Source: Desulfofundulus kuznetsovii DSM 6115 (GTDB taxonomy: Bacteria > Bacillota > Desulfotomaculia > Desulfotomaculales > Desulfovirgulaceae). From it: a stretch of 64,000 nucleotides of DNA. Numbering within the stretch: the stretch's first letter is position 1; the number at the start of each line of letters is the position of its first letter. The stretch covers positions 1,263,001 through 1,327,000 of the forward strand of contig NC_015573.1 in assembly GCF_000214705.1 (NCBI RefSeq). Reading direction: 5' to 3'. The notes under the pieces were generated by a model, which was given only the letters and a program-made list of their open reading frames with translations, was not told the origin of the DNA and did not search any database. This document shows positions 19,834 through 53,915 of the stretch, in pieces. A program made the position numbers and the translations under genes.

Positions 19834-20016
19834 GGGCGGCGGCCGCCCCCGTCGCTCCGTGCTACGGGCCGGATGAAACAACGGTTCGCCAATCTCAACC
19901 CGGCGCTCACTGGTAAGGTACTCCTTCTGAGTAACGTTGTTTACATGTGCTCAATGGCTATTCTAACGAAAGAGTTGTTTAGTGAGTGCGGGGCTGCTCC
20001 TTCAGGGACAGCCGCC
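19834..20016. repeat. Structured dispersed repeat, family 1 copy 1
   Basis: A GC-rich outer arm (GGGCGGCGG at 19834 against GCCGCC at 20011) encloses a core at 19906-19986 that starts CTCACTGGTAAGGTACTCC and ends AGTGAG. The core differs from that at 44032-44113 at three positions in 82. The CGCTACGGGCC-like segment at the left is also shared. The copy sits between the terminator of the CxxC gene and the stop codon of the minus-strand aminotransferase. No open frame is conserved between the copies. Confidence 0.8.
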
Positions 20017-30599: not shown

Positions 30600-30838
30600 G
30601 TAAATGTTCAGTGAACCCGCTTTGGTGCCGCATTGTCCGCGCTCACTCCAGTGCTCTGCGTTGACAGCACCGCGGTTCGCTTCGGACCGGACTAGCGCCG
30701 CTGGAAAGGCGGCATGCCAGTTGCATCTTACTGTCATTTTTTGCCGTTTCAGGAAGTTACCTTACATTGCTTTGCAGGTCGTTTGCTTTGGGCAACGCGG
30801 CACTTTGCCTACATGGTAGGGTTTTACTGAACATTTCC
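30600..30838. mobile_element. MITE-like element, family 2 copy A (239 bp, IS66-type ends)
   Basis: The left end GTAAATGTTCAGTGAACCC (30600-30618) matches the inverted right end GGAAATGTTCAGTAAAACC. Outside the ends AAGGCGGC (30592-30599) and AGGGCGGC (30839-30846) form an imperfect 8-bp direct repeat. The interior has strong secondary structure and shares about 65 bases (30630-30690) with the inverted right part of the 53.6-kb element. There is no transposase frame. A GCCGCC-caa-GGCGGC hairpin just outside the left end overlaps the putative duplication. The rest of the 30510-30915 gap shows no gene. Confidence 0.8.
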
Positions 30839-43947: not shown

Positions 43948-43958
43948 TCTCTAGCAGA

Positions 43959-44173
43959 TACTGTCGCATAACTACCTGGGGCGGCGGTCGTCCCTCGTTG
44001 CTCCGCGCTACGGGCCGGACAAAAGCCAGCACTCACTGGTAAGGTACTCCTTCTGAGTAACGTTATTTACATATGCTCAATGGCTATTCTAACGAAAGAG
44101 TTGTTCTAGTGAGTGCTGGGTCGCTCCTTAATGAACGACCGCCGCTCGTACCGTCTTTGGTTTTGCGACAGTA
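43959..44173. repeat. Structured dispersed repeat, family 1 copy 2
   Basis: The ends TACTGTCGCA (43959-43968) and TGCGACAGTA (44164-44173) are perfect inverted repeats. Inside are nested arms GCGGCGGTCGT / ACGACCGCCGC, then CCAGCACTCACT (44026-44037) / AGTGAGTGCTGG (44108-44119). The 82-base core matches the 19.9-kb copy at all but three positions. No coding frame is conserved. It sits between pyrD and pyrF, so it is probably transcribed in the pyr mRNA. No clear target duplication was seen. Confidence 0.82.
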
Positions 44174-44191
44174 CCTGGTACAGGTTATGTC

Positions 44192-49152: not shown

Positions 49153-49250
49153 CCCAGCACTCACCATGATTACTGGCTCTTTTCGAAACCCGAGTGCCAT
49201 TTAAACCTGGAACGCCGGTAGTATAGTCATGTTTTTGGGTGAGTGCTGGG
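49153..49250. repeat. Large hairpin with family 1-like arms, between bioD and bioA
   Basis: CCCAGCACTCACC (49153-49165) and GGTGAGTGCTGGG (49238-49250) are a perfect 13-bp inverted repeat. The arm shares CCAGCACTCAC with the inner arm of the 44.0-kb repeat, but the enclosed 72 bases differ. The interior shows a further imperfect stem (ATGATTACTGGC region against GCCGGTAGTATAGTCAT). It may be a divergent member of the same family or a regulatory leader of bioA. Confidence 0.6.
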
Positions 49251-53608: not shown

Positions 53609-53915
53609 GAAAATATTTAGTAAAACCGTTATGAGGAGGATGCGGCGCTGTCCGGAGCGAACGACTTGCGAAGCGCCGGTAACAGCACCCGGTGAAGCGA
53701 GGCTGCCGGCTCGGCTCTCGAGGACGCATGATGAACTACCCGGAAGAGGACCTTTTAAGACATATTGTTTCAAAAGGTAACAACGAAGAATGATTAGTGG
53801 CGGGCAATCCGCAGAGAGCCAGAGCCGGTCCGAAGCGAGCCGCGGTGCTGTCGGCGCGGAGCACTGGAGTGAGCGGGGACAGCGCCGCATCCAACCGGGC
53901 TTACTGAATATTTAC
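53609..53915. mobile_element. MITE-like element, family 2 copy B (307 bp, IS66-type ends)
   Basis: The left end GAAAATATTTAGTAAAACCG and the inverted right end GTAAATATTCAGTAAGCCCG match at 15 of 20 positions. The direct repeats AAACAGTT (53601-53608 and 53916-53923) are perfect 8-bp flanking duplications. Each arm carries a GATGCGGCGCTGTCC segment, so the whole element folds as a long imperfect inverted repeat. The region 53825-53890 is the inverse of 30630-30690 in copy A with few differences. No transposase is encoded. Confidence 0.88.

Follow-up and report, generated by a model that had tools for sequence, protein, structure and literature searches.

Module B, a probably mobile hairpin module nested in palindromic MITE-like elements of Desulfofundulus kuznetsovii

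Two repeat cores and the module that contains them

The window, a stretch of 64,000 nucleotides from the closed genome (3,601,386 bp) of Desulfofundulus kuznetsovii DSM 6115, contains two copies of a repeat core, located at 19906-19986 (81 bp) and 44032-44113 (82 bp). The near identity of the two cores reported in the initial annotation was confirmed: they differ by two substitutions and one indel, and a search with copy 2 recovers copy 1 at E = 4.6e-40. The 82-bp core that had been taken as the unit of the repeat is real, but it is the interior of a larger unit, a 95- to 96-bp module (hereafter module B) bounded by a 12-bp inverted repeat, CCCAGCACTCAC/GTGAGTGCTGGG (Table 1). Copy 1 is a decayed member of the module B family. 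Its ends contain three changes, two of which fall at a single pair and produce G-G, while the other produces G.U. Copy 1 adjoins a fragment of an arm of a MITE-like element, element A, and copy 2 lies inside a shortened copy of A, whose flanks (TAGCA and TGGTA) represent a possible diverged 5-bp target duplication. A third module is situated in C-like arms between two ORFs that, by inspection, resemble dethiobiotin synthetase and biotin aminotransferase.

Table 1. Module B copies and MITE-like elements in the window
Feature	Position	Strand	Remarks
Fragment of a left arm of MITE-like element A, flanking copy 1 on its left	19834..19890	+	Over 48-57 bp, 84-92% identical to A arms
Module B copy 1 (group i)	19899..19993	+	CCCGGCGCTCAC / GTGAGTGCGGGG ends, partly decayed
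Right arm of copy 1	19994..20016	+	Much like the right arm of a different module at the orthologous site of G005
C-type element without module B	30600..30838	+	Ends GTAAATGTTCAG...
Shortened element A bearing module B copy 2	43957..44175	+	Ends GATACTGTCGCA / TGCGACAGTACC (by inspection)
Module B copy 2 (group i)	44025..44120	+	Common to G001; absent from the same site in G002-G005
Module B, third copy	49153..49250	+	98 bp; exact ends, group ii-like interior
C-type element without module B	53609..53915	-	About full length

The outer arms of the repeat, which had been interpreted as compensating arms of one structured unit, turned out to be parts of separate, larger palindromic MITE-like elements, A (~297 bp) and C (~308 bp). 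The claim that these arms had changed while remaining paired holds only in part: in comparison with the A-element arm GGCGGTCGTCCC, copy 1 contains a single matched double change, and pairing is lost at two other positions (by inspection). Element A ends in GATACTGTCGCA and is flanked by 5-bp direct repeats at two loci (L014 and L008, by inspection). Element C ends in GTAAATATTCAGTGAACC, and 8 of the 23 distinct C elements listed have identical 8-bp flanks; in some other C elements, the 8-bp flanks are one base apart. Inverted ends and target duplication, two features of a MITE, are both present in element C, and the outer elements A and C fit the bacterial MITE class better than B does. At least two other outer families, recognised by inspection, also carry B. 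As a mover of element C, IS66 was considered and rejected, because the three IS66 transposases of the genome do not have C-type ends; one match with two mismatches lies near one of them. Two loci (L178 and L130) contain an extra segment of ~85 bp that ends in GCCGCTGCCATA in both cases; the surrounding element is A at one locus and C at the other. This segment is possibly another family of nested modules.

Distribution, conservation and folding of the module B family

The description of the repeat as a dispersed family with a hairpin stem was borne out, and the family is probably mobile. The 12-mer end occurs 124 times in the D. kuznetsovii genome at one mismatch or fewer, versus 10 occurrences of a reversed-pattern control, and all 72 exact occurrences fall in whole, nested or truncated modules. 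Exact ends separated by a 60- to 82-bp spacer were found in 8 of the 113 genomes of the class and in 6 of 6 genomes of the genus, with no occurrence of the reversed-pattern control; the six genus genomes searched contain 8-59 exact-ended copies each. Named carriers among the matches listed are at least Desulfofundulus, Moorella and one Syntrophomonadaceae MAG, and a search of viral contigs for module B with exact ends yielded no matches. Among 259 end pairs lying 41-129 bp apart, a number in which re-fetched loci and nested ends are counted again, 219 are 94-99 bp long, with a mode of 96 bp. To the extent of the titles and abstract openings of the literature searched, no description of this family was found.

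Clustering of 181 distinct modules from the D. kuznetsovii genome and related loci yielded seven groups of 49, 35, 30, 17, 16, 11 and 7 members, plus small groups. The group of seven is a sister family with CCCCGCACTCAA ends. Also included in the 181 are two Kribbella matches (L203 and L233) and L287, which have little in common with B except the ends and look unrelated. At four loci of a Clostridia isolate (L197, L200, L219 and L242), sister modules with CCCCGCACTCAA / TTGAGTGCGGGG ends were observed near B modules. The interiors of different groups are scarcely alignable, and their length is kept. A crude ORF model placed 147 of the modules (34 of the 181 remained unplaced), and 131 of these are intergenic: 92 between codirectional, 19 between convergent and 20 between divergent genes. 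These counts resemble those of module-free gaps in the 8-kb loci under the same model (132, 31 and 46, respectively), indicating no marked orientation bias.

The core had been described as nearly invariant. This is true of copies 1 and 2, but in the family as a whole variation is concentrated in the interior, and the ends hardly change. In 19 group-i copies, which were fetched by overall similarity, identity averages 97.4% at the ends, 71.8% in the interior and 70.2% in the adjoining arm. This set includes at least one orthologous pair (L002/L068) and excludes truncated group-i copies in which one end is missing (L011, L071 and L075); since most loci were fetched by exact ends, it is the comparison least affected by that bias. 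The cores of copies 1 and 2 are alike because both copies belong to one subgroup, group i, and not because the core is constrained. A rate test on 58 orthologous pairs, some of them repeated, gave differences of 1.4% at the ends, 6.2% in the interior and 8.5% in the flanks, but it was set aside because it is biased by the fetching of most loci by exact ends.

It is very unlikely that the module is a conserved structured non-coding RNA with selection acting on an RNA fold of the core. Every copy has a terminal stem, and when the collected copies were analysed for covariation, as the initial annotation had suggested, this stem covaried above all 500 shuffles, with changes on both sides at 3 of 12 stem pairs in 44 diverse copies; some single copies fold well, and the smaller groups show some predicted interior pairs. 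However, the consensus fold of the same 44 copies consists of the terminal stem alone, with an unpaired interior, and the same is true of the two largest groups (49 and 35 members). The third group (30 members) shows five shifted pairs adjoining the stem, the fourth (17 members) a few short interior pairs, and the groups of 16, 11 and 7 members more interior pairs, but on little variation. The loops of 60 of the 181 copies fold no better than dinucleotide shuffles (mean z-score 0.03; 2 of the 60 below -2). Six of 13 stem pairs never vary, suggesting that the stem is kept as sequence, and the changes on both sides of pairs 4-104 and 12-96 stem from three cousin modules of Clostridia isolates; matched transposon ends would produce such changes likewise. 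In agreement with the earlier statement that no known ncRNA consensus is recognisable, Rfam yielded no match at gathering scores and none for copy 1 at E <= 1, and the sole weak match (E 0.24) is far under its gathering score. The copy 1 site is, moreover, empty or occupied by another module in sister species. A structured RNA is therefore not supported, because no interior fold is conserved over the 44 diverse copies.

Sites with and without the module

Comparison with sister species revealed both presence/absence and exchange of modules. The copy 1 site contains no module in G001-G004, and in G005 it is occupied by a module of another group (group iv, by inspection). Ten locus pairs, chosen from a larger list, were aligned. 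In six of them, the D. kuznetsovii genome contains the outer element without B and the relative contains it with B, either as a simple difference (L177/L117, L178/L014 and L266/L119) or together with larger rearrangements (L196/L107, L320/L130 and L316/L114); the other four pairs show more differences. In L177/L117, the sole large differences inside the C element are the replacement of CAGCG by one B and of GCGAGGCTGC by another B. In L079/L123, one of the other four pairs, about the same intergenic site is occupied by a B-bearing element in both genomes, a C element in D. kuznetsovii and an A element in the relative. At seven replacement sites that were read, 4-13 bp are replaced and no target duplication is present. 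For B the replaced stretch is 5-13 bp, which sets it apart from typical IS200/IS605-type insertion. Modules were also found inside other B modules, leaving tandem 11-bp end repeats (L056, L237 and L246). Tandem 11-bp duplications of module ends, up to three, were observed at L056 1422-1592, L090 1062-1168 and L237 216-468, some of them deriving from nested modules. In the loci compared, no case was seen in which B had entered unique sequence cleanly and by itself, and some of the spread could thus be passive.

Short cousins of the module were found downstream of tnpB in the D. kuznetsovii genome. This genome contains IS607-type elements (named by inspection), which encode a resolvase/MerR protein together with one that matches the Cas12f1-like TNB domain (tnpB); the latter is present at nine places, in some cases with frameshifts or stops (loci L344, L346 and L349-L373). 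An alignment of the downstream regions comprised 13 rows, including 12 of the 25 tnpB loci; one row is cut short (L358) and one differs (L353). Seven aligned loci, representing six places (L350, L351, L352, L362, L372 and L368/L373), contain a small hairpin of the form GCC-TTTA/TTCG/TTTG-GGC, whereas at three places, all in D. kuznetsovii (L346, L367 and L370/L371), the loop is swapped for another hairpin with CAGCACTCAACAC arms between the same GCC and GGC. The inserted hairpin contains an 11-bp part of the B ends. A solitary 70-bp hairpin with CAGCACTCAACAC arms is present in L339, which represents the same genomic place as L345. The region downstream of tnpB may be a guide-RNA scaffold; an Rfam search of this region yielded no match. 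In a second IS607-type subfamily (L347, position 2008; L348, position 1974), a hairpin, GCACTCAAGTTTCTTGAGTGC, is located ~90 bp past tnpB, and the CACTCA stem shared with this hairpin may hint at the origin of the B ends.

Mode of spread and relation to known elements

The explanation that we consider probable is that module B is a REPIN-like, non-autonomous mobile hairpin that is moved in trans and has been spread further by transposition of the outer elements and by gene conversion. Its two near-invariant 12-bp inverted ends surround a spacer whose length is kept and whose sequence is free; as single-stranded DNA, B would form a hairpin with a 12- to 15-bp stem and a loop of ~70 nt. An enzyme supplied in trans may recognise the folded ends and insert B into palindromic or single-stranded DNA, leaving no target duplication. 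Being palindromes, existing repeats would be favoured as targets, namely A, C, other MITE-like families and other B modules, and, in the case of the short cousins, the hairpin that lies downstream of IS607-type tnpB. After entry into A or C, B would be carried by their jumps and spread or lost by gene conversion between copies. Since each group favours one site of one outer family, much of the copy number of B may derive from these two processes. When 374 loci (1.72 Mb, counting overlaps twice) were scanned by motif, no RAYT-like ORF was identified; the single match, in L177, looks spurious.

Two other accounts of the spread start from the same anatomy. A classical MITE, derived by deletion from a DDE-transposase IS whose terminal inverted repeats it shares, would explain the inverted ends, small size, many copies and module-free sites in relatives. 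We regard this origin of B as unlikely, because the seven replacement sites show 4-13 bp replaced instead of duplicated targets and because neither an autonomous IS nor any longer element with exact B ends was found in the D. kuznetsovii genome (one-mismatch ends were judged among the matches listed). It is likewise unlikely that B has never been self-mobile and that its copies go back to a few ancient captures, multiplied as the outer MITEs transposed and as palindromes underwent gene conversion with one another. Such passive amplification would account for the tendency of each group to occupy one fixed site of an outer family with the same junctions (by inspection: group ii at C site 1, group iii at C site 2, groups i and v in A), as well as for the module swap at the copy 1 site in G005. 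It is at odds with the finding that the ends are far better conserved than the adjoining arm and with the recurrence of these ends across several outer families, within B, in records from other groups of bacteria and, as the 11-bp part, in the tnpB hairpin.

A more tentative idea, which we consider rather doubtful, concerns the way in which the module enters its targets. B may act as a hairpin cassette that moves into the tips of other hairpins, where its CCCAGCACTCA stem takes the place of the apical loop and the host stem is kept. Host palindromes, including the hairpin downstream of tnpB, would then be extended and not broken. Such tip replacement could arise if the hairpin were cleaved at its loop and another hairpin then served as the template for copying, a route that, to our knowledge, has not been described for bacterial repeats. 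With DNA energies, the closing pair around the replaced bases is likelier than at >=83% of other positions at four of the seven sites, but one site is at the 5th percentile; the support for loop replacement is thus suggestive only.

If B is mobile in trans, as we favour, it would represent a REPIN-like family for which no RAYT has been found so far, and the sites with and without B in sister species make its choice of targets directly testable. Entry of the cousins downstream of tnpB would show how a possible RNA-guide scaffold can be remodelled, and yet left unbroken, by a selfish hairpin. For annotation, conserved cores in palindromes of this kind need not be RNA genes.

No target duplication was seen for B at the sites read, and REPINs are not known to leave one. 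REP sequences carry the tag tetranucleotides GTAG/GGAG or CGTC, and by inspection no such tag was seen at the B ends of the copies listed, which have CCCAGC/GCTGGG ends and variable flanks. Since neither a REP tag nor, in the 374 loci, a RAYT was seen, we do not file B as a REPIN; that it works like one is held with moderate confidence. Small dispersed repeats that Elhai et al. reportedly described in cyanobacteria in 2008 are said to resemble B in being tiny and mobile and in residing in minitransposons and within their own copies, and to differ from it in length (21-27 nt) and host.

According to the passages of PMC3116915 on REPINs, in which small dispersed repeats are also mentioned, REPINs are REP doublets that form hairpins and are linked to RAYTs. 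B shares with the elements described there two highly conserved inverted ends, a less conserved spacer of constrained length, a single-stranded DNA hairpin, insertion into or next to existing copies, and an extragenic location, but its spacer is longer and it resides inside MITE-like elements. As outlined in the part of PMC2229807 devoted to them, RUP and the Correia/NEMIS MITEs are, like B, ~100 bp long, dispersed and bounded by inverted ends, and RUP enters other mobile elements (IS elements); B differs from them in that no target duplication or TA ends were seen and no partner IS was found. The Rickettsia palindromic elements, in the account of the same source, are palindromes of 105-146 bp that also enter RNA genes (tmRNA and M1 RNA), but their host is different, and their fusion into conserved protein genes was not seen for B. 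Short palindromes of Volvox organelles, as presented in the relevant portion of PMC2670323, differ from B in occurring in organelle DNA and in having loops of 3-5 nt; like B, they are nested in one another, and their loops are often TTTA, as are those of most empty tnpB hairpins observed here.
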